NCBI RefSeq assembly: GCF_002162035.1
Contig: NZ_CP021138.1
Span: forward strand, 1 to 64,000
DNA: 64,000 nt
Direction: 5' to 3'
Source of the DNA: Sulfuriferula sp. AH1
GTDB taxonomy: Bacteria; Pseudomonadota; Gammaproteobacteria; Burkholderiales; Sulfuriferulaceae
Under the pieces are notes generated by a model. That model saw nothing but the letters and a program-made list of their open reading frames with translations, made no database searches and was not told where the DNA came from. The position numbers were made by a program, and so were the translations under genes. Position 1 is the first letter of the stretch. Each line of letters starts with the position of its first letter. Positions 6,689 to 28,072 of the stretch are shown one piece after another.

Positions 6689-7006
6689 TCACCCCACAGC
6701 TGCCTCAATCATCTTCTGCAACTCCTCCTGCTGAAACATCTCGCGCACGATATCGGCACCGCCGACAAACTCGCCTTTGATGTACAACTGCGGGATGGTC
6801 GGCCAGTTGGCATACGCCTTGATGCCGTCGCGGATTTCCGGGTCAGCCAGCACGTTCACGGTGACATAATCCTTCAGGCCACAGGCCTGCAGAATCTGCA
6901 CGGTGACGCCGGAAAAGCCACATTGCGGGAATTGCGGCGTGCCTTTCATGTACAGCACGATGGGATTGGCGGTGACTTGAGTGCGTATTTTTTCCTGTGT
7001 GCTCAT
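6689..7006 (-). CDS. grxD: Monothiol glutaredoxin, Grx4 family
   Basis: Binds a glutathione-ligated [2Fe-2S] cluster and passes it to target proteins. The 105-residue protein carries the CGFS active site at residues 29-32 in the stretch TPQFPQCGFSGV and the family block NWPTIPQLYIKGEFVGG near 68. It lies 15 bases downstream of ibaG on the same strand. Grx4 and BolA-type proteins form a known heterocomplex, so the pair is probably one functional unit for iron-sulfur delivery. Confidence 0.95.
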   Translation of the reverse strand: MSTQEKIRTQVTANPIVLYMKGTPQFPQCGFSGVTVQILQACGLKDYVTVNVLADPEIRDGIKAYANWPTIPQLYIKGEFVGGADIVREMFQQEELQKMIEAAVG

Positions 7007-7021
7007 TTTATTGCTCCTGAA

Positions 7022-7270
7022 TTAGCGGGTAGTCGATTGTGCCCAGGTTTCGGGCGTGAAGGTGCGTATGGCCAAGGCATGGATTTCCGCCTGCATGCGG
7101 TCGCCCAGCGCCTGATAAATCAGCTGGTGTTGCTGCACTTTGCTTTTGCCGGTAAATTGCGGGCTGACGATGATTGCCTCGAAGTGCTGGCCGTCGTCGC
7201 CCAGCACTTCAACGTGATCGCAGGACAGGCCGTTCATGATGTAACCTTTTATTTCGTTCGCTGTCAGCAT
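7022..7270 (-). CDS. ibaG: BolA/IbaG family iron metabolism protein
   Basis: Small BolA-fold protein, partner of the downstream monothiol glutaredoxin. The 82-residue protein begins with a short helix (MLTANEIKGYIMNGL), then VEVLGDDGQHFEAIIVS, and ends with HALAIRTFTPETW, which matches the IbaG branch better than BolA proper. It is probably cotranscribed with grxD, which follows 15 bases downstream. The exact partner role is taken from the family. Confidence 0.88.
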   Translation of the reverse strand: MLTANEIKGYIMNGLSCDHVEVLGDDGQHFEAIIVSPQFTGKSKVQQHQLIYQALGDRMQAEIHALAIRTFTPETWAQSTTR

Positions 7271-7413: not shown

Positions 7414-8097
7414 TTAACCTATGGTAACGATCAGCGGTTCCAGCCCGGCGACAGTAGCTTCGATGACGTCACCATTGACCACGGCGCCGACGCCCGCCGG
7501 CGTGCCGGTAAAAATCAGATCGCCGGGAAACAGCTCGACCTGTTGCGACAAATAGTTGATGATTTCAGGAATTTTCCAGATCATGTCGCCGACATCGCTG
7601 CTCTGGCGTACCTGACCGTTCACTTTCAGTTCGATTTTGCCTTTGGCAATCACGCCCGTGTAGAACTCCGGCGTGATCGCGGAGCAGGGTGCTGAATAAT
7701 CGAAGCCTTTGCTGATGTCCCAGGGCCGTCCCTGCCCACGTGCGACGCGTTGCACGTCGCGTTTGGTCATGTCGAGGCCGACGGCGTAGCCGAAAATATA
7801 ATCGTTGGCTTTTTCCAGCGGGATATTGCGGCCACCGATAGCCATGGCGACGACCAGTTCGACTTCGTGCTGCAGGTCGCTGGTGCCAGGCGGGTAAGGC
7901 ATCACCGAGTTGTTGGGCAGGATGGCCTGAGCCGGTTTCGTAAAGAAAAACGGCACTTCACGCTCGGTATCGCCGCCCATTTCCTGCATATGCGCAGCAT
8001 AATTCTGGCCGATGCAATAAATGCGACGCACCGGGAACGGATCGCTCGACATGGCCGGAATACTGACGACGGGAGCGGGGGTGAAAGCGTAATTCAT
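7414..8097 (-). CDS. Fumarylacetoacetate hydrolase (FAH) family protein
   Basis: Metal-dependent C-C bond hydrolase or decarboxylase of the FAH/FAHD fold. The 227-residue length fits single-domain members acting on fumarylpyruvate- or oxaloacetate-like beta-keto acids. Conserved blocks are [16 protein letters not shown] near residue 28, [11 protein letters not shown] near 75 with metal-binding glutamates, [10 protein letters not shown] near 125 and [11 protein letters not shown] near 197. It sits between the grxD-ibaG pair and the 91-aa/AAA+ operon on the same strand. The exact substrate cannot be read from the sequence, and a link to nitrogen fixation is not evident. Confidence 0.88.
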
Positions 8098-8134: not shown

Positions 8135-8410
8135 TCACATCAGCCTGTCATTGCCGCGATAACCTGCATCCATGTCGAATTCCAGATAATAGATACGGAA
8201 ATGCTGTTCCATTTTGCCGGCTTCCGGTATGGAAGCGGTGCGTTCCGGATATTGTGCCAGCAAAGCGGTACGGTGTGCCGTCCACGCATTCAGCAACGCC
8301 GTCCTCGCATCTTCCTTGTTGCGATCTACGCCTTTGAAGATGAAATTATGGGTAATCATTTCCGCGACGTAAAAGCGCGACGCTGCTGTCGCTTCATTTG
8401 CCGGCTTCAT
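8135..8410 (-). CDS. Unknown 91-residue protein, last gene of the AAA+ operon
   Basis: I do not recognise a family. The protein starts MKPANEATAASRFYVAEMI, contains a charged alanine-rich helical stretch (RTALLNAWTAHRTALLAQ) and ends with an acidic aromatic segment (YYLEFDMDAGYRGNDR). The start ATG at 8408-8410 overlaps the stop of the AAA+ gene in an ATGA arrangement, so translation is probably coupled. This start is chosen over an upstream in-frame one that would run deep into the AAA+ gene. A role as a small partner of the ATPase is inferred only from coupling. Confidence 0.7.
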   Translation of the reverse strand: MKPANEATAASRFYVAEMITHNFIFKGVDRNKEDARTALLNAWTAHRTALLAQYPERTASIPEAGKMEQHFRIYYLEFDMDAGYRGNDRLM

Positions 8411-10029
8411 GCCTGCGCCGCAACCCGCCCGAAATCCATGCCCCGGAATACCGAACAGCGCATGAAGGCTTCCGCGCTCGGTGCGACCTGTTTCTGGTGG
8501 CAGAATTTGGCGGTGAGCTTGGCCAGGCCCTTGATGTCGCGACCGGTGGCGCACGGGAACATGTCGACCAGCGCGTCGATCAAGGCGGCATCCACGTCCA
8601 GCCCGAACTGTTCGGTCATCATTTGCCAGATCTTGCGCCGCGCATCGCTTTGCGGCGGGTAAAACTTGGTCATGGCGATGCAGCGCGAGACGATGGCTTC
8701 GTAGATGTCGTCGACACGGTTGGTGGTCAGGAACAGCAGACCGTTGAAATACTCCTGCACGCGCAGGAATACGCTGACCACCGCATTCATGGTCATATTG
8801 TCGTCGCGGCGCTTGATATAGACGTCGGCTTCGTCGATCAGCATTACCGCGCCCAGCGCTGGGGCGCGGGTCAGCACTTCCTTGAGCGCGGTTTCCATCG
8901 ATGCGACGTTCAGCCCGAGCTGGCCGGAGTGTACCCAGTGCAGCGGGCGCTGGATGATTTCGGAATACACTTCAGCAGTCAGCGTTTTGCCGACTCCGGC
9001 AGGCCCGGCGCACAGCACCGTAGTACCGCCCGATTTGCCGGCAACGATATCGTCCATGAGCACGTCCATTTCGGCGGTCAGTATGTCGATGAGGTCGGTC
9101 TGTTCCTGCGGCAGGATCAGCTTCTGTTTCAGCGCGGGCTGGTACTGGTAGGGCATCATGTCGTCGACATGTACCCACAGATAATGGTGCAGTTCGAGAT
9201 GGAACATGAGGATGTAGGCGTGTACCGGGAGCTGGCAAAACAGGCCCTTGGGTATCGCCGCCTGCGATTCCCTGGCTTCATCTTCAGCTTCGTACTTGTT
9301 GCTCTTGGCCGCCTTGTTCAGGTACGAGCCCAGTATGTCGCCCGTGACTTCCAAAGTTAAAATACGCGAAGTGAGTATGCTTTCGTCGTTGACCAGCCGC
9401 GCCGTGCCGCCGCTGCTTGACAGCACTACCACGTCCTTGCGTGACCAGTCGGTATTGCGGCGCGAGGAATTCGGATCGTCGGTATAAAAGCCGGTGCCCT
9501 GACCGGAAAACTGCGCACCGTATTGCGCGCGCCAGTCGAAATAGCGCGCCGCCGTTTCATTATAGGCATCGACGAGTTCGGGCGTTTCTTTCAGGTAACC
9601 TTTACTGGCAAAAATTTCAGCTATGGTTTTGCCGTCGATATCGCCTGCGCCGATGCGAAACGTCGCCATGGTGATGGTGCCCTTGGTATTGGCTTTCAGT
9701 TCGACCATCACTTTGCCGGTCTCGTCGTTCGATGACGGCGTAAAGTCGAGACGGGTAACCACGTACGGCAACGGTTTACTGGTGGCGTTGGCAGTAAACA
9801 GCCAGCCGCGTATTGCATTCGTCATCAGGTAATCGGCAATCGCCGGTATGAGCATTTCCAGCTCCGCCGCCTGGTACAGATTGCCGAGGAAACCCAGTTC
9901 GGTATCCGATAATTGGCTGAACAAGACCTCGACCTTATTACCGAACTTGAGCTGCCCTTTCAGCGGTTCCAGCCCGGGAAAGGCATCGATCATGGCCTCG
10001 ATGTAAGGCCGCTCTATCTGCAGCTTCAT
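8407..10029 (-). CDS. AAA+ family ATPase with uncharacterised N-terminal half
   Basis: ATP-driven remodelling protein of 540 residues. The C-terminal half is a clear AAA+ module: Walker A GPAGVGKT at 342-349, Walker B VMLIDEAD at about 395-402, sensor 1 TTN at 435-437, a candidate arginine finger in SRC near 449, and a sensor-2 GRDIK at 496-500. The N-terminal 300 residues match no domain I can name and may bind the substrate. Its start shares one base with the stop of the upstream 160-aa gene, and its end overlaps the 91-aa gene. It belongs to a four-gene operon with a predicted NifA/sigma-54 promoter. MoxR-like or CbbX-like activase roles would be analogies only. Confidence 0.85.
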   Translation of the reverse strand: MKLQIERPYIEAMIDAFPGLEPLKGQLKFGNKVEVLFSQLSDTELGFLGNLYQAAELEMLIPAIADYLMTNAIRGWLFTANATSKPLPYVVTRLDFTPSSNDETGKVMVELKANTKGTITMATFRIGAGDIDGKTIAEIFASKGYLKETPELVDAYNETAARYFDWRAQYGAQFSGQGTGFYTDDPNSSRRNTDWSRKDVVVLSSSGGTARLVNDESILTSRILTLEVTGDILGSYLNKAAKSNKYEAEDEARESQAAIPKGLFCQLPVHAYILMFHLELHHYLWVHVDDMMPYQYQPALKQKLILPQEQTDLIDILTAEMDVLMDDIVAGKSGGTTVLCAGPAGVGKTLTAEVYSEIIQRPLHWVHSGQLGLNVASMETALKEVLTRAPALGAVMLIDEADVYIKRRDDNMTMNAVVSVFLRVQEYFNGLLFLTTNRVDDIYEAIVSRCIAMTKFYPPQSDARRKIWQMMTEQFGLDVDAALIDALVDMFPCATGRDIKGLAKLTAKFCHQKQVAPSAEAFMRCSVFRGMDFGRVAAQA

Positions 10030-10511
10030 TACTCTATGCCTTCCAGTATTTCCAGCGCGACCAGTTGACCACGCAATGCGTCTCGCGCCCAGTATCCGGC
10101 AGAACCGTCGAACACCGGGTCGCTTTCCAGCGCTGCGGTAGCTTGCGTGTCCGACCAGTAAATCTTGTACGCCTGTGTGCGTCGCGCCAGCGCAGCAACG
10201 CAGGCATCGGTTTCAGTGATGGCCTCGGCCTGGAATACGCCGTCGCCGAGCAGATAGTCCGCCCGGTACAGCGGCGTATCCCAGCCGTGTTCGTCGCCCA
10301 GGCTGCAAATTGCCGGGAACTCGTCGCGTGCATCGGGCGTGTCTGCCGTCTTGCCCAGCAGTTCGATCAATTCGCGTGCGGTTACCACGTCGAATATTTC
10401 CCATTCCTTGCGCGTATCGGTCGCATAGATTTTGTGCAGCAGATCCTGCTGTTCGAAGGCGAACCACGCATGGGCTTTTCCCTGCTCGGGAAATTCGACG
10501 ACGTAAATCAT
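10029..10511 (-). CDS. Unknown 160-residue acidic protein in the amine oxidase-AAA+ operon
   Basis: I cannot assign a family. The protein begins MIYVVEFPEQGKAHAWFAFE, has an acidic composition and ends with GQLVALEILEGIE. Aromatic residues recur (AWFAF, YKIYWSD, GYWARDAL) and there is no signal peptide or membrane segment. Its start overlaps the amine oxidase stop by four bases and its stop abuts the AAA+ start, so the three genes are translationally coupled. That implies a constant stoichiometric relation with its neighbours, which is inference. Confidence 0.75.
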   Translation of the reverse strand: MIYVVEFPEQGKAHAWFAFEQQDLLHKIYATDTRKEWEIFDVVTARELIELLGKTADTPDARDEFPAICSLGDEHGWDTPLYRADYLLGDGVFQAEAITETDACVAALARRTQAYKIYWSDTQATAALESDPVFDGSAGYWARDALRGQLVALEILEGIE

Positions 10512-11632
10512 AAACTTCTCCCGTATGTGCTTGGTGATGATTTGTATGCGGCATTGTTCTCGGCGTTAAGCATGTATGCGACACGCTCGCCTGCCTCCAG
10601 CGCGCCTTCCATGTATCCGGCGGCATAACTCGCCGTCTCGGAACCGCAGAAATACAGCCTGGCATCCCAGCATGACCGGCGCAGCGCCGGGTCGTCGTAG
10701 GCCGGATGTCTGCCGGGCGGGACTTGATCCAGCGTGCTGCTGGTATAAACCTCGGTGGCCCAGTCCTGTACATGCTGGGTACCGTCATCGGCTTCGCGGC
10801 CGAACAACTGCACCAATTGACTGGAAATCAATATTGGCATGCCTGCCTGAAACGATAGGCGCAGCGCCGGTGACAGCGCTATGAAACCGCCCAGTGCAGC
10901 CTTGTCGCCAGCAGCGTCGCAGGCGTCGAAAGTTTCGTACAGCATCGCCTGTTCATGTTCAACGAAAGCATTGCCGGCTAGGCCTGCGGCACGCCAGAAC
11001 GGTTGCGCATAAGTGACCAGCACTTTGGCCTGATCGGCCATCCAGGTATAGGTCGCACGCATGCTCTGGCGCAGCGCTTCGTCCAGTGGCGGCTCGAAGC
11101 ACACCCGCTCTTCCAGCAAGCGTGGGGGCACGGCCAGCACCACCCGGCGCGCCACAATCATCTGCACGCTGTCACCGCAACGAAAATGCAGCTCGACGTG
11201 GTCGCGATGCCGAATCACGGCGATCAGCGTATGCCCCAAGTGCAGTACATCGGCGGGCAAGGTGGCGGCTAGCGCCTCTATCAGGCTGCCCATCCCCCCT
11301 GCGAGACGCTGCGCGCCATCGTGGATGCTGCCGGTCGAATACGGCTGTGGCGCCTTGTCGGGATCGCTCAGGTTTAATACCGTCCCCTGATCGTGCTGCG
11401 CATAAGCTTCCAGTCCCAGCTCCGCTACCAGACGATGAATGCGCGGCTGCGTTTTGGGCCAGAACCAGGCCGGGCCGAGATCCAGCGCCATATCGTCGAC
11501 TGGTACGCTCAGGATGCGTCCGCCGAGCCGCTCGCGCGCTTCGAACACGGCGAAGTCGCGCCCCTGCTGTTGCAGATTGCGGGCCAAAGCCAGCCCGCTC
11601 AGACCGCCGCCTATGATTGCTATCCCCAGCAT
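10508..11632 (-). CDS. FAD-dependent amine oxidase family protein
   Basis: Flavoprotein of the amine oxidase/protoporphyrinogen oxidase superfamily, 374 residues. The N-terminus holds the FAD-binding Rossmann motif IIGGGLSGLALARNL (residues 6-20), followed by FEARERLGGRI, which is diagnostic of the family. A second FAD-contact region near the C-terminus reads LYFCGSETASYAAGYMEGALEAG. The substrate is unknown. It is the first gene of the leftward four-gene operon, with a GG-N10-GC promoter motif only about 37 bases from the start and a TGT-N10-ACA site about 140 bases upstream. It is divergent from the 99-aa gene at 11934. Confidence 0.87.
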   Translation of the reverse strand: MLGIAIIGGGLSGLALARNLQQQGRDFAVFEARERLGGRILSVPVDDMALDLGPAWFWPKTQPRIHRLVAELGLEAYAQHDQGTVLNLSDPDKAPQPYSTGSIHDGAQRLAGGMGSLIEALAATLPADVLHLGHTLIAVIRHRDHVELHFRCGDSVQMIVARRVVLAVPPRLLEERVCFEPPLDEALRQSMRATYTWMADQAKVLVTYAQPFWRAAGLAGNAFVEHEQAMLYETFDACDAAGDKAALGGFIALSPALRLSFQAGMPILISSQLVQLFGREADDGTQHVQDWATEVYTSSTLDQVPPGRHPAYDDPALRRSCWDARLYFCGSETASYAAGYMEGALEAGERVAYMLNAENNAAYKSSPSTYGRSL

Positions 11633-11668
11633 GGTTCGTCCCCGGATATCGAATATATGAGAGCGTCA

Positions 11669-11682
11669 GCAAATATCGTTCC
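11669..11682 (-). promoter_or_regulatory. Predicted sigma-54 promoter for the amine oxidase operon
   Basis: On the minus strand the sequence GGAACGATATTTGC has the required GG-N10-GC spacing and the TTTGC -12 element. The -12 element lies about 37 bases before the amine oxidase ATG. The -24 element is GGAAC rather than GGCAC, so the match is moderate. Confidence 0.55.
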
Positions 11683-11772
11683 CCGTTGCAGCGTTACGCC
11701 GCGAAGTACGCGGTTTGCTGGTTTGAAGCGGCGATTTGCCTCGCGCCACGCAAAATGCAGCAACGCTGCAGC

Positions 11773-11788
11773 TGTAGCCTTTACGACA
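11773..11788. promoter_or_regulatory. NifA-type upstream activator site in the divergent spacer
   Basis: TGTAGCCTTTACGACA is an exact TGT-N10-ACA match. It lies about 85 bases upstream of the rightward -24 element and about 90 bases upstream of the leftward one, so a single palindromic site could serve both directions. A 6-bp inverted repeat (GTTGCA, TGCAAC) lies nearby at 11815-11830. Confidence 0.65.
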
Positions 11789-11873
11789 AAACATACAGGA
11801 TAGATGCGGCAATTGTTGCATCGTTGCAACGCGTAGACCGCCATTCTCCGCCATGCATGGGATCTGCCGTTAA

Positions 11874-11889
11874 TGGCATGGTTTATGCT
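11874..11889 (+). promoter_or_regulatory. Predicted sigma-54 promoter for the 99-residue protein gene
   Basis: TGGCATGGTTTATGCT matches the -24/-12 consensus with exact GG-N10-GC spacing. The -12 element is 45 bases before the ATG at 11934, and AGGAG at 11922-11926 provides a ribosome site. Confidence 0.7.
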
Positions 11890-11933
11890 GTTGCGCCAGG
11901 CATGCATACGCATGTTGACCCTAGGAGATTAAA

Positions 11934-12233
11934 ATGCAAGCCACTCTTGAAAAACCAGCAATGATCCGTATCGAAGGCCAGGACGCCTGGATTGCCTCGC
12001 CGGAAAGTATAGACAGCGGAATTGTCGCTGCCACCATCGTCTTTGCCCGCCACGGCGTTGATCCGCAGGATTGCGCAAAGGCCAGCGAAAAACTGTTCCG
12101 CGGCGTCGAATTACTCAGCGAACGGGAAGCGCTGCTGTGCCTGATCTGGGATGAAGCCGATTACGCGGCATTCCACGCCATCACGGTAGGCTGGTTAAGC
12201 CGGGATATCGACATCCAGATCGTCGTACGCTGA
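11934..12233 (+). CDS. Unknown 99-residue protein under a predicted NifA/sigma-54 promoter
   Basis: No family recognised. The protein starts MQATLEKPAMIRIEGQDAW, has a central helical part (EKLFRGVELLSEREALLC) and ends with DIDIQIVVR; it is soluble and mildly acidic. The start is supported by a good Shine-Dalgarno sequence AGGAG eight bases upstream. It stands alone, divergent from the amine oxidase operon, sharing the TGT-N10-ACA site. Co-regulation with nitrogen fixation is inferred from the promoter only. Confidence 0.75.
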   Translation: MQATLEKPAMIRIEGQDAWIASPESIDSGIVAATIVFARHGVDPQDCAKASEKLFRGVELLSEREALLCLIWDEADYAAFHAITVGWLSRDIDIQIVVR

Positions 12234-12357: not shown

Positions 12358-13611
12358 ATGCATGTCGTTATCCTTGGGAGCGGAGTAGTCGGTGTAACCA
12401 GTGCTTATTATCTGGCTCGCGCCGGGTTTCAGGTAACGGTTATCGACCGTCAGCCGGGCCCGGGGCTGGAGACCAGTTTCGCCAACGCAGGACAGATTTC
12501 ACCGGGCTATTCGACCCCCTGGGCTGCGCCGGGAATTCCCCTGAAAGCGCTTAAATGGCTGACCCAGCGCCATGCACCGTTGTCTATCCGTCCCGACGGC
12601 TCGTTGTGGCAACTGCAATGGATGGGCCAGTTGCTGCAGAATTGCACGCTCAGTCGCTACCTCGTCAACAAGGAACGCATGGTGCGGCTGGCCGAATACA
12701 GCCGCGATTGCTTGCACGACCTGTGCATGCAAACCGGCATCACCTACGAAGAACGCAGGCTAGGGACACTGCAGGTTTTCCGTACCCGGCAACAACTGGA
12801 CGCAGCGAGCAAGGATATCGTTGTGCTCGAACGCCAGGGCGTACCCTACCAGTTGCTGAACCCGAACGACTGTGCGAGGGTGGAACCGGCACTGGCTGCG
12901 GTCAGCCACAAACTCACCGGCGGACTGCATCTGCCCGGCGACGAAACCGGCGACTGCATGCTGTTTACCAGCCGGCTGGCGGAAGCAGCACAAGCGCTGG
13001 GCGTGAACTTCCGCTACAACCTGCCGATCACCGGCCTGATTAGCGAGCATGGCCGTATTGCCGGCATAACGGCGGGGGCCGAACACATAACCGGCGATCA
13101 TTACGTAGTCGCGCTGGGCAGCTATTCGCGCAACCTGTTGCGGCAAGTCGGCCTGGACATCCCGGTCTACCCTGTCAAAGGCTATTCGCTGACCGCCTCG
13201 GTCACCGCCGCGCCCGCCGCGCCTGTTTCCACCGTGCTGGACGAAACCTACAAAATCGCCATCACCCGTTTCGACCAGCGTATCCGCATCGGCGGCATGG
13301 CCGAACTGGCCGGCTTCAACCTGACCCTCAACCCTCGACGTCGGCGCACGCTGGAGATGGTGATGCACGACCTGTTCCCGCACGGCGGCGACATACCCGA
13401 AGCGACGTTCTGGACCGGGCTGCGCCCGATGACGCCGGACGGCACGCCCATCATCGGCGCTACCCGCCACCCCAACCTGTGGCTCAACACCGGCCACGGC
13501 ACCCTGGGCTGGACCATGGCGTGCGGCTCGGCGCAGATACTTGCCGATCTGATCGCACGGCGCGACCCGTCGATCCGTGTGGACGATCTGGGTATCGGAC
13601 GTTATGGCTGA
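12358..13611 (+). CDS. dadA: D-amino acid dehydrogenase
   Basis: FAD flavoprotein that oxidises D-amino acids to 2-oxo acids, passing electrons to the respiratory chain at the inner membrane. The 417 residues match the family length. The N-terminal dinucleotide motif [16 protein letters not shown] (5-20) is followed by [13 protein letters not shown] near 41, a DadA signature. The C-terminal part includes [17 protein letters not shown] and [16 protein letters not shown] near 375. It is a single gene between the 99-aa gene and the DsrE-like gene, and does not look part of the nif regulon. Confidence 0.94.
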
Positions 13612-15112: not shown

Positions 15113-15964
15113 TTACGAATGCACTTCCAGCTTTTCGCCGGTTAACAACGCGACGAATTGCTGCAGCGGCATATCTATGTGCTGAATATTTTGCTCTTCG
15201 AGAAAGCGCAGTTCGTTACGGGTCAGTTCGCCCGGCAATACTGCCCAGTGGTGATCCGACGAACGCTTCATCACCTGACGGGCGAAAGTGCGCTGCAGCT
15301 GGTCGTTGAAACGGCAGCCGAGGAACAGAAAATGCCGGCCGGTGCGGGTTTCCTGCACCTTGGGCGGAATCGGCGTCTGGATGTCGATCTCGGTAAGCAC
15401 TTCGACGTAATCGGTATCGGACACCAGGAAATTGGCCGCCGGACGTGCGCCGCCTATCGGTTTGTAGAGCATGGTGTTCCAGGCGGCGGCATTGTCTTCG
15501 ATAGTCGGCACGCCTAATGCATCGTAATATCCGGTCCAGGTGCCGAAATGTTCCGACTGCGACAAGCCTTGTACCTGCCCCCAGTCGCTACGCCCGGCCA
15601 GCGCATTTTGCGATGCGTCGTCGTACCAGGCATCAACCCACAGCGGCAGATTGGTCAACGAGGCAATGTAGGTATGCAGCGGCGACGGCGTCATCTTGGG
15701 CGCAAACGCCTCACCCATGTAAGTGGTAAGGGTTTTGCGGTGCTTGAAGTTCTCGATGAATTGCGCCGCTGCCGTCAGCCGGTTGCGGATCTTGTGGGGT
15801 ACGGTGACTTTGGATGTCAGTATCGCTGCCAGTGCCTCGGGGGCGGATGGCACCGGTGCACCGCCGGGAATCAGATCGAGTACGCCGGGCCCGAAATAAG
15901 GGATAACGCGACCGCCGACCAGGCCGTCGGTCAATTGCGGGGGGAGTGTCGTTTGTATGGTCAT
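15113..15964 (-). CDS. SIR2-like domain protein in the nif operon
   Basis: 283-residue protein resembling the SIR2-like NAD-binding family. The start region GGRVIPYFGPGVLDLI corresponds to the nucleotide-binding loop. An SDTDYVEVLTEI segment near 195 and RHFLFLGCRFNDQLQRTFARQ near 222 resemble the D-Y and FLG-S-D elements of SIR2-like proteins. Such domains usually act as NAD hydrolases or deacylases, often in defence systems. Here the gene sits inside the nif operon between the DegT-like gene and the ferredoxin gene, so a metabolic or regulatory task tied to nitrogenase is likelier. I chose ATG 15964, because an upstream in-frame start would overlap the DegT-like gene. Confidence 0.75.
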   Translation of the reverse strand: MTIQTTLPPQLTDGLVGGRVIPYFGPGVLDLIPGGAPVPSAPEALAAILTSKVTVPHKIRNRLTAAAQFIENFKHRKTLTTYMGEAFAPKMTPSPLHTYIASLTNLPLWVDAWYDDASQNALAGRSDWGQVQGLSQSEHFGTWTGYYDALGVPTIEDNAAAWNTMLYKPIGGARPAANFLVSDTDYVEVLTEIDIQTPIPPKVQETRTGRHFLFLGCRFNDQLQRTFARQVMKRSSDHHWAVLPGELTRNELRFLEEQNIQHIDMPLQQFVALLTGEKLEVHS

Positions 15965-15992
15965 GTCTAAATCCTCGATTGCTGATGGGGCT

Positions 15993-17141
15993 TCAGTAAA
16001 TCGCCGCTCCGGCACCAACGTTGATTGATGAGTCCTTGGTGGTAGTGACGATAAAATGCACCGTGTCGCTGTCCAGATGGGCATGGAACGGCAGCGCCAG
16101 CGAACGGTCTGCTACTTTTTCGGTGACGAACAGATCGCCTTTCCTGTGTCCCAGCATGCTGTAAAAATACTGCAAATGCAGCGGGTTGCAGTAAGCCAGC
16201 ACTTCGACCTGCTCAGTAGCGAGATCGTCGACTATCTGGTTGCGCCCGCTGCGCGTGAAGCGGGTGCCAAGGTGAACGACAAAGCTCATCCAATGCACTT
16301 CATCCACTTCGGGTGCGACATAGGACGGCTTGATGCCTTCAAACGCAAGGATGTGTTCCTCGTAAAAGCTTTCGACCCGCTTGCGCCGTGCCAGGATTTC
16401 ATCCAGCCGGTCGAGTTGCGCCAGACCGAGCGCCGCTGTCATATCACTGATGGAGGCCTGAAACGGCACCCGACTGGCAATGGCGATGGAGAAGCGTTCG
16501 TCCAGACCGCGGCTGCGGTGGTAGCGTAACTCACTGGCGAGGTCGTGATCGTCAGTCACGATCATCGCGCCCTCGCCGCAACACAGCGCCGAGGGCTGGG
16601 AAAAATCGAATATCGCCACATCGCCGAAAGTGCCGACCAGCTGACCTTTATATTGCGAACCGATGGCCTCGGTAGAATCTTCGATCAGCTTGATACCGTG
16701 CACATCGGCCAGTGCGCGAAACGGCTCCCATGCTGCCGGGTGACCGTTGGTATTGCCGGCCACGATAGCGCGAGTTTGCGGCGTGATTTTGGCTGCGGCC
16801 TTCTCTACCGACAACGTACCCGACCAGTAGTCGATATCGGCAAATACCGGCGAGGCCCCGACCAGCACGATGGCATGCACAATCTGATGCCAGGAGTAAG
16901 CGCTGGCTATCACTTCGTCGCCAGGGCCAATGCCCATTGCTCGCAGGCTGACCATCAAGCCTATGGTGCCGCTGGATACCGCAACGGCATAACTGCGCCC
17001 CAGGCTTTCGGCAAAGGCATCTTCAAATTTTTCCACCACCGGCCCCGCAGACAGGCGCGAGGATTTCAGCACATTGGCGACAGCAGCCAGTTCATGCGTG
17101 CTGATATCGGGGTCGGTTAACGGAATCCAGTCGTCTTCCAT
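15993..17141 (-). CDS. DegT/DnrJ/EryC1/StrS-like protein lacking the PLP lysine
   Basis: 382-residue fold-type I protein of the DegT sugar-aminotransferase family: VSSGTIGLMVSLRAMGIGPGDEVI near 55 split over two motifs, then HGIKLIEDSTEAIGSQYKG near 148 and FSQPSALCCGEGAMIVT near 180. In active members the last block reads with a lysine that forms the Schiff base with pyridoxal phosphate. Here the aligned position is Ser184, with Ala185 where Asn is usual. Ordinary transamination therefore seems impossible unless another residue substitutes. It is part of the nif operon, 21 bases after the 90-aa gene. Function is unknown. Confidence 0.82.
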   Translation of the reverse strand: MEDDWIPLTDPDISTHELAAVANVLKSSRLSAGPVVEKFEDAFAESLGRSYAVAVSSGTIGLMVSLRAMGIGPGDEVIASAYSWHQIVHAIVLVGASPVFADIDYWSGTLSVEKAAAKITPQTRAIVAGNTNGHPAAWEPFRALADVHGIKLIEDSTEAIGSQYKGQLVGTFGDVAIFDFSQPSALCCGEGAMIVTDDHDLASELRYHRSRGLDERFSIAIASRVPFQASISDMTAALGLAQLDRLDEILARRKRVESFYEEHILAFEGIKPSYVAPEVDEVHWMSFVVHLGTRFTRSGRNQIVDDLATEQVEVLAYCNPLHLQYFYSMLGHRKGDLFVTEKVADRSLALPFHAHLDSDTVHFIVTTTKDSSINVGAGAAIY

Positions 17142-27634: not shown

Positions 27635-28072
27635 TCAGCCACCACTCATCACCAGATCAAACGCTCGGCGCAGCAGGTTAAGCTCCTGAATCGGGGTACC
27701 GCGCATTTCACTGATGGGTTTGAACACGCCGCCATTGGGTTCCAGTGCGGCCTTGGGTGCATCCAGCGTAGTAAAACGCAGCAAATGAATGCGAATCGGG
27801 CCGGTGGGACTGTCCATCCATTCCTGAAACCCATCGGCATGCGTCAATACGGTCGGGGAATAACCATACTGCGCGGTCATGGCCGCCATCACGGTATCGG
27901 CATCATGCTGTTCACTGGTTTCTGCTGGTGCAGCCATCGCGCTGGCTTCTTCCGGCAACGGGGTGGGCGCCAGTACGCTGGTGCCGTAGCGCGCAAACAC
28001 CGAGGCGGCGCTGTAGCTGTCGAAGTGGCACAGGATCACACGATTACGATCGAAAATATTGGCACTCTCCAT
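27635..28072 (-). CDS. Unknown 145-residue protein downstream of nifA
   Basis: No domain recognised. The N-terminus (ANIFDRNRVILCHFDSYSAAS) is followed by an alanine- and proline-rich linker (residues 33-55), then YGYSPTVLTHADGFQEWMDS and RIHLLRFTTLDAPKAALEP, suggesting a compact alpha/beta C-terminal domain. It lies 32 bases after nifA on the same strand and is probably cotranscribed. The IS256 right end is only 36 bases beyond its stop. A nitrogen-fixation role is inferred from position only. Confidence 0.7.
   Translation of the reverse strand: MESANIFDRNRVILCHFDSYSAASVFARYGTSVLAPTPLPEEASAMAAPAETSEQHDADTVMAAMTAQYGYSPTVLTHADGFQEWMDSPTGPIRIHLLRFTTLDAPKAALEPNGGVFKPISEMRGTPIQELNLLRRAFDLVMSGG

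Follow-up and report, generated by a model that had tools for sequence, protein, structure and literature searches.

The window, a stretch of 64,000 nucleotides of Sulfuriferula sp. AH1 (contig NZ_CP021138.1, positions 1 to 64,000 of the forward strand), contains a leftward operon encoding a flavin amine-oxidase-type protein, a protein of 160 amino acids (aa), an AAA+ ATPase and a 91-aa protein, together with a divergently oriented gene for a 99-aa protein. On the evidence of their shared promoter region, the operon and the divergent gene are very probably members of the NifA/sigma-54 regulon, and the AAA+ ATPase, which is the most widespread part of the operon, belongs to a diazotroph-associated clade. 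Most likely the locus encodes a remodelling ATPase of the AAA+ class that is dedicated to nif and works with small partner proteins, predicted to be accessory to nitrogen fixation and not essential for it. The transfer of nitrogen fixation to new hosts is held back by the maturation and protection of nitrogenase, and an AAA+ clade with NifA-type promoters is a testable candidate for a missing nitrogenase accessory factor. In addition, a pathway can now be predicted for three protein families that no Pfam or NCBIfam model describes. The five genes are as follows:

8135 to 8410, minus strand: gene for the 91-aa protein, of no known family
8407 to 10029, minus strand: gene for the AAA+ ATPase (540 aa, AAA domain at about 338-450)
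10029 to 10511, minus strand: gene for the 160-aa protein, of no known family
10508 to 11632, minus strand: flavin amine-oxidase-type gene (374 aa; flavin adenine dinucleotide (FAD) motif, lysine K203 of the monoamine oxidase (MAO) type, shortened substrate domain)
11934 to 12233, plus strand: gene for the 99-aa protein, of no known family

A first-pass annotation made from the sequence had described four leftward genes joined by overlaps of 4, 1 and 4 bases and a divergent 99-aa gene, with which the coordinates of the open reading frames (ORFs) agree. The 91-aa frame is the in-frame portion of a longer ORF in the ORF list that starts with GTG. The annotation had also assigned three of the five proteins to no family, and indeed searches of Pfam and NCBIfam with the 91-, 160- and 99-aa proteins return no match at an expectation value (E) <= 1.

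The shared promoter region

The intergenic spacer carries a single exact NifA upstream activating site (UAS) flanked by sigma-54 elements that face both ways, each located where the first-pass annotation had seen it:

11668 to 11683, minus strand: -24/-12 sigma-54 element of the leftward operon, GGGAACGATATTTGCT
11773 to 11788, no strand assigned: UAS, TGT-N10-ACA, TGTAGCCTTTACGACA, common to both promoters
11874 to 11889, plus strand: -24/-12 sigma-54 element of the 99-aa gene, TGGCATGGTTTATGCT

The UAS is 101 and 105 bases from the two outward elements, both of which differ from the consensus TGGCACG-N4-TTGCW by two mismatches. Single motifs of this kind are weak and common: TGT-N10-ACA alone occurs 330 times in the genome compared with 355 times for the reversed control, and the -24/-12 pattern alone, with two or fewer mismatches, has 21 matches in the window compared with a shuffle mean of 18. 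Since each is common singly, the motifs alone were rejected as proof of regulation. Their combination is not due to chance. The divergent arrangement appeared in none of 100,000 simulated 301-base spacers, and a combined rule (two or fewer mismatches, GG and GC fixed, UAS 60-160 bases upstream of the -24/-12 element) identifies six sites in 164 kb, made up of the window and five 20-kb stretches, namely the two outward promoters described here and the promoters of nifB, nifH, nifV and an iscS gene. When the spacers of five genomes are aligned (AH1, G013, G014, G009 and G004), the UAS and both -24/-12 elements are in register in all five and much of the remaining spacer differs; in G004 and G009 the -24/-12 elements carry three mismatches to the consensus. 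The case for regulation therefore lies in geometry, conservation and controls and not in single motifs. Motif geometry, footprinting by spacer alignment, co-occurrence with nifH and nifB, and synteny in part of the loci all favour the NifA regulon membership that the first-pass annotation had predicted.

NifA-type promoters also precede the AAA+ gene elsewhere. A looser rule (three or fewer mismatches, UAS 40-200 bases upstream, within 350 bases before the gene) is passed before the AAA+ gene in 15 of 32 named loci, all of them of the Rhodocyclales type, compared with 9 of 543 other ORFs. These nine comprise nifH, nifL, nifV, nifU, an iscS gene, an etfB/fixA-type gene, a ferredoxin-type gene, a member of the 99-aa family and one unnamed ORF. 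The Rhodocyclales type consists of 13 loci of one tree clade together with L025 (Azonexus) and L038 (Betaproteobacteria, assigned by its neighbours), and its loci are related and not independent of one another. In all 15 the UAS is situated 70-119 bases upstream of a -24/-12 element that itself lies 41-53 bases before the start codon, with three or fewer mismatches. No nif-type gene was found in the stretch examined in 14 of the 15, and L032 is nif-linked. That the AAA+ gene has a NifA-type promoter even in loci mostly without nif genes nearby speaks against the view that it simply travels with the nif island. The Rhodocyclales-type loci contain the AAA+ gene without the other four genes, often adjoining an RNA-methyltransferase-type gene, and no relative of the oxidase is found in the stretch examined. 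In the other 17 of the 32 loci the looser rule found nothing just upstream of the AAA+ start, and in several of these the AAA+ gene is not the first gene; the Acidithiobacillus loci contain a UAS and a -24/-12 element, not in the expected order.

Association with nitrogenase genes

Homologues spread equally among non-diazotrophs, which the first-pass annotation had named as speaking against a nif role, were not found for the close AAA+ clade when its presence was compared with that of nifH in three genome samples. The clade is delimited by a gap in score that was defined after the fact (above 600 bits, versus 307 or less). The samples, comprising 100 relatives, 369 genomes of the class and 398 of the phylum, overlap and all include the AH1 genome; within each genome the number of candidates scored was limited, and the Fisher values are descriptive and computed without correction for relatedness. 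Nine of the 100 relatives carry the AAA+ clade, eight of them being nifH-positive in a sample with 21 nifH-positive genomes over the cut-off (Fisher 9e-6, or 4e-5 without AH1). All eight carriers among the 369 genomes of the class have nifH, which is present in 32 genomes at E <= 1e-100 and in 31 over the cut-off (Fisher 1e-9, or 2e-8 without AH1). The phylum sample has five carriers in 398 genomes, four with nifH, and 39 nifH-positive genomes altogether, 38 of them over the cut-off (Fisher 4e-4, or 3e-3 without AH1). nifH was likewise found in 27 of the 32 named genomes that were identified via the AAA+ gene (26 over the cut-off), and three of the other five have nifB. The clade spans Alpha-, Beta- and Gammaproteobacteria as well as Acidithiobacillus. 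The 160-aa family is present in 10 of the 100 relatives, eight of which are nifH-positive, and the 99-aa family in 15 of the 49 AAA-bearing genomes searched.

Distant relatives of the AAA+ protein scoring about 250-310 bits (in G042, G088, G290, G723 and G729) were excluded from these counts, and none of them occurs in a nifH-positive genome. More distant full-length relatives are common outside the diazotroph-associated clade. Full-length AAA+ homology on its own was rejected as a nif marker, 200 of the 201 matching plasmid records being below 60% identity; two of these 200 were inspected and have no nif gene annotated within 6 kb. Only the close AAA+ clade is diagnostic for nif.

In a survey of 72,556 plasmids the 91-aa family matches one record, which is a nif plasmid, the 160-aa family two records, both in nif clusters, and the 99-aa family two records. 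The plasmid of Methylococcus sp. EFPC2, which bears nifL, nifV, nifW, nifT and nifZ, encodes a relative of each of the five proteins and has the 160-aa gene beside nifL. In Paraburkholderia aromaticivorans pBN1 the 160-aa gene and one further small gene are located between nifK and nifE. The second 99-aa record is a weak match on a Methylocapsa polymorpha plasmid, where the annotation shows no nif gene within 7 kb. Specificity for nif is lower in the oxidase family: 64 plasmid records match at E <= 1e-20, the top three with 56-59%, and the one record inspected, from Methylocella tundrae, has no nif gene annotated within 10 kb.

In G013 and G014 the genes lie between a nifS-type side and the nifH and nifD-type genes, with nifB beyond the nifS-type side in G014. 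Three Acidithiobacillus loci share the order AAA+ gene, 99-aa gene, Rieske protein gene and nif-type genes, in which the Rieske gene is followed by rhodanese-ankyrin, nitroreductase-type, cysE, homocitrate synthase, nifS/iscS-type and nifU genes. Two further genes flank the locus in AH1:

7414 to 8097, minus strand: fumarylacetoacetate-hydrolase-family gene (Pfam PF01557)
12358 to 13611, plus strand: dadA, D-amino-acid-dehydrogenase-type gene (NCBIfam NF001933)

The fumarylacetoacetate-hydrolase gene is the probable last gene of the leftward operon; it is separated from the 91-aa gene by 37 bases and directly follows that gene in G013, in G014 and on the nif plasmid of Methylococcus sp. EFPC2. 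dadA is possibly co-transcribed with the 99-aa gene, an order that recurs in G004 and G009; in G013 and G014 dadA is not beside the operon. grxD (6689-7006) and bolA (7022-7270) were considered as operon genes and rejected, as their identity to the nif-linked copies of EFPC2 is 49% and 26%, respectively.

The encoded proteins

The AAA+ protein matches PF00004 in its C-terminal part only (50.4 bits, cut-off 21.2), and its N-terminal half has no Pfam match. Across 37 sequences the Walker A motif GPAGVGKT, the Walker B residues DE, the sensor TTN and the SR arginine are conserved, and a profile comparison places Rix7, p97/Cdc48 and NVL nearest among the solved sequences. A structural model built with 37 sequences, including more diverse relatives, reaches a predicted local distance difference test score (pLDDT) of 83.3, compared with 56.8 for the first model; in it an N-terminal half that combines helices with strands precedes a C-terminal AAA domain. 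Foldseek aligns the model to proteasomal Rpt, Msp1, FtsH and Rix7/NVL domains in the PDB. The six best viral models, which are giant-virus AAA proteins, align over 468-574 columns with a template modelling (TM) score of about 0.6. The first-pass annotation had ascribed an unknown fold to the N-terminal half; this stands as far as Pfam is concerned, but not for the two-part architecture, which recurs in plasmid, phage and giant-virus ATPases. To our knowledge no function has been described for this architecture. Relatives of the AAA+ protein in the Bacillus jumbo phages PBS1, AR9 and vB_BsuM-Goe21 share 37% identity over 89% of the length and are annotated as ATP-dependent protease in some records.

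The likeness to AAA+ ATPases with DUF7025 and AAA_lid_13 (a lid that Pfam terms "fungal"), which are found in phages and giant viruses, is one of architecture over most of the length. Five of the 37 aligned members match DUF7025. Unlike these ATPases, the window protein has no DUF7025 match at E <= 0.01 and the nif-associated clade forms a separate branch: in a tree of 57 sequences its 47 members group together with support of 100/99, in a reconstruction that omits L025, L036 and L038 and contains several long outgroup branches, accompanied by a program warning. The set A3 comprises 27 of the 32 named AAA+ loci; it omits L021 and L028 as well as L025, because of an internal stop, and L036 and L038, because contig ends truncate them. 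Alignment A6 comprises 19 of the 32. The AH1 gene is without 84 bases (28 residues, in frame) that are present in G013 and G014. These residues also occur in all other clade members of A6 that cover that place, and their loss is apparently a natural deletion in the AH1 strain.

The oxidase matches PF01593 with 166 bits. Like the flavin monoamine oxidases, among them MAO-B and the bacterial MAO 8p84, it retains the FAD motif, the lysine and the C-terminal FAD segment; the lysine, K203, is invariant in 10 sequences and aligns with the MAO lysine, number 296 in MAO-B. Unlike these enzymes it lacks about 90-100 residues of the substrate domain, as measured against 8p84. As a VioA the oxidase scores 58 bits, far below the cut-off of 600. 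When profiles of the 160-, 99- and 91-aa families were run against the PDB, no match fell below E 0.3, and the 91-aa profile had none at E <= 1. A function in anti-phage defence was rejected, as the only PADLOC hits are those of the AAA domain to IetA and TRIP13, with 38 bits at best, and a weak one of the oxidase to a desaturase type.

Predicted role and neighbouring genes

No description of this operon was recognised in the open-licence literature searched. PnfA of Pseudomonas stutzeri A1501 is a 31.7 kDa NifA/sigma-54-dependent accessory protein, whose relatives are described as occurring only in diazotrophs (PMC2820453). Like the operon in AH1, its gene is one of unknown function with a TGT-N10-ACA UAS, a -24/-12 element and an accessory role, which for AH1 is a predicted one; unlike it, PnfA is not described as an ATPase (PMC2820453), whereas the AH1 locus combines an oxidase with an AAA+ ATPase and three families of small proteins. 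In Azoarcus BH72, azo3791 encodes a "conserved hypothetical ATPase" outside the nif cluster and is one of eight genes with predicted RpoN and NifA sites, within the set modulated under nitrogen fixation and by NifA (PMC3916325). azo3791 resembles the Rhodocyclales-type arrangement of the AAA+ gene, and orthology is no more than a lead.

It is proposed that under nitrogen-fixing conditions NifA would bind at 11773-11788 and switch on both transcripts. The AAA+ protein would assemble a ring and act through its N-terminal domain, with the 91-, 99- and 160-aa proteins serving as adaptors or clients where they are present. The ring would then remodel a nif protein, either nitrogenase components or the assembly proteins for cofactor and iron-sulfur (Fe-S) clusters, and in doing so maintain assembly or activity. 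Remodelling of a nif protein is the best explanation of the clade's distribution and predicted regulation, and we give it about an even chance. The first-pass annotation had suggested that the oxidase and the ATPase could repair, mature or protect a nif component, which is likewise a prediction. The oxidase would provide a separate redox step that is switched on simultaneously, and the operon as a whole may improve or protect nitrogen fixation without being required for it. A more specific and rather improbable form of this proposal is that of a nitrogenase "activase", in which the diazotroph-dedicated ring and lineage-specific adaptors of 91, 99 and 160 aa would rescue stalled, oxygen-damaged or mis-metallated complexes. 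Such remodelling of nitrogenase or of a cofactor scaffold would be comparable to the role of Rubisco activase, of which we know no counterpart in the nif system.

Several observations weigh against this proposal. The AAA+ clade is present in a minority of nifH-positive genomes (8 of 21 in the relatives, 8 of 32 in the class and 4 of 39 in the phylum). Conversely, G001, G102 and G109 have the clade without nifH and nifB, and G554 has it without nifH; among the 32 named genomes, those with neither nifH nor nifB are a Ferrovum and a Hyphomicrobiales metagenome-assembled genome. G001 (L139), a genome of the same genus in one contig and given as 100% complete, has the AAA+, 99-aa, oxidase and fumarylacetoacetate-hydrolase genes with a NifA-type promoter and neither nifH nor nifB; either it has lost its nif genes or the assembly lacks a plasmid. 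In two nifH-positive genomes of the same genus as AH1 the AAA+ gene exists only in fragments (G009, L137) or was not found (G004, L138); both carry the oxidase, 160-aa and 99-aa genes. The partner genes vary by lineage, and no Rhodocyclales-type genome among the 15 has a 99-aa match. Linkage to nif genes is uncommon: in 22 of 23 named loci, a set that does not include nine others, the nif-linked ones among them, 11 nif-type queries found no match in the stretch examined. The usual aromatic pore loop 1 is not evident when the protein is aligned to Rix7 with HMMER, and a threading unfoldase activity is therefore doubtful. The genes are not one obligatory set. The patchy presence of the AAA+ gene in diazotrophs indicates an accessory and not an essential function, and its partnership with the small proteins is a putative one.

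The alternative that survives best, although it is itself unlikely, is that the AAA+ protein would serve nitrogenase by inserting, extracting or recycling [2Fe-2S] electron carriers, handling folded Fe-S or zinc-ribbon proteins in the way that Bcs1 acts on the Rieske protein. This analogy draws on Rieske, 2Fe-2S ferredoxin, FmdB-like zinc-ribbon and glutathione S-transferase (GST) neighbours: the Rieske gene follows the AAA+ and 99-aa genes and precedes the nif genes in the three Acidithiobacillus loci, and on the EFPC2 nif plasmid the AAA+ gene comes after grxD, bolA and a zinc-ribbon gene, with 2Fe-2S and Rieske genes near. The pore loop that is not evident would also suit such a function. 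Nevertheless, the Bcs1 N-terminal family is not among the Pfam matches, and the neighbours of the AAA+ gene are unrelated genes in most loci of the Rhodocyclales type.

Less likely again is a side branch of the nif regulon for nitrogen scavenging, in which the amine oxidase and DadA would, during nitrogen starvation, free ammonia or keto acids from amines and D-amino acids, with the AAA+ and small proteins as passengers of the operon. Two amine- or amino-acid-oxidising flavoproteins do flank one NifA site, and the 99-aa and dadA genes keep their order in G004 and G009; however, G013 and G014 do not have dadA beside the operon, in Rhodocyclales-type loci a NifA-type promoter precedes the AAA+ gene itself and no oxidase relative was found in the stretch examined, and the 160-aa gene of Paraburkholderia is situated between nifK and nifE. 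Least probable is a role in regulation or turnover, in which the AAA+ protein would remove NifA, NifL or inactive nitrogenase for a separate protease in the manner of ClpX2, the nif-linked AAA+ unfoldase of Azotobacter vinelandii, for although its AAA+ domain is of the remodelling type and clpP, clpX and lon genes are present on the EFPC2 nif plasmid, neither a ClpX model nor a protease domain matched the operon proteins. The resemblance to ClpX2 is that of an AAA+ protein tied to nif genes; unlike ClpX2, the window protein matches no ClpX model, none being among its 10 NCBIfam matches at E <= 1.

The window begins at dnaA and holds nifB, nifA, a nifS-type gene (481 bits, under the NifS cut-off of 531) and nifV, with nifH and nifD at 134-137 kb of the same contig. 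The nif genes of AH1 are thus split, nifB and nifA being less than 30 kb from dnaA and nifH and nifD more than 100 kb from nifB and nifA; in G013 and G014 they lie closer together. A 145-aa protein (27635-28072) without an NCBIfam match at E <= 1e-6 adjoins nifA, and its relatives are encoded in the same accessory clusters, near a Rieske or zinc-ribbon gene, and in L141 behind the 160-aa gene. A SIR2-like protein in the nif region (15113-16084) adjoins a DegT-type aminotransferase, and comparable neighbours occur on the Methylococcus sp. EFPC2 nif plasmid. Near nifH there is a SagB-family dehydrogenase-type gene (G000:C1 131058-132821, L061:1058-2821), which recurs beside nif genes in L019, L022, L034 and L133.

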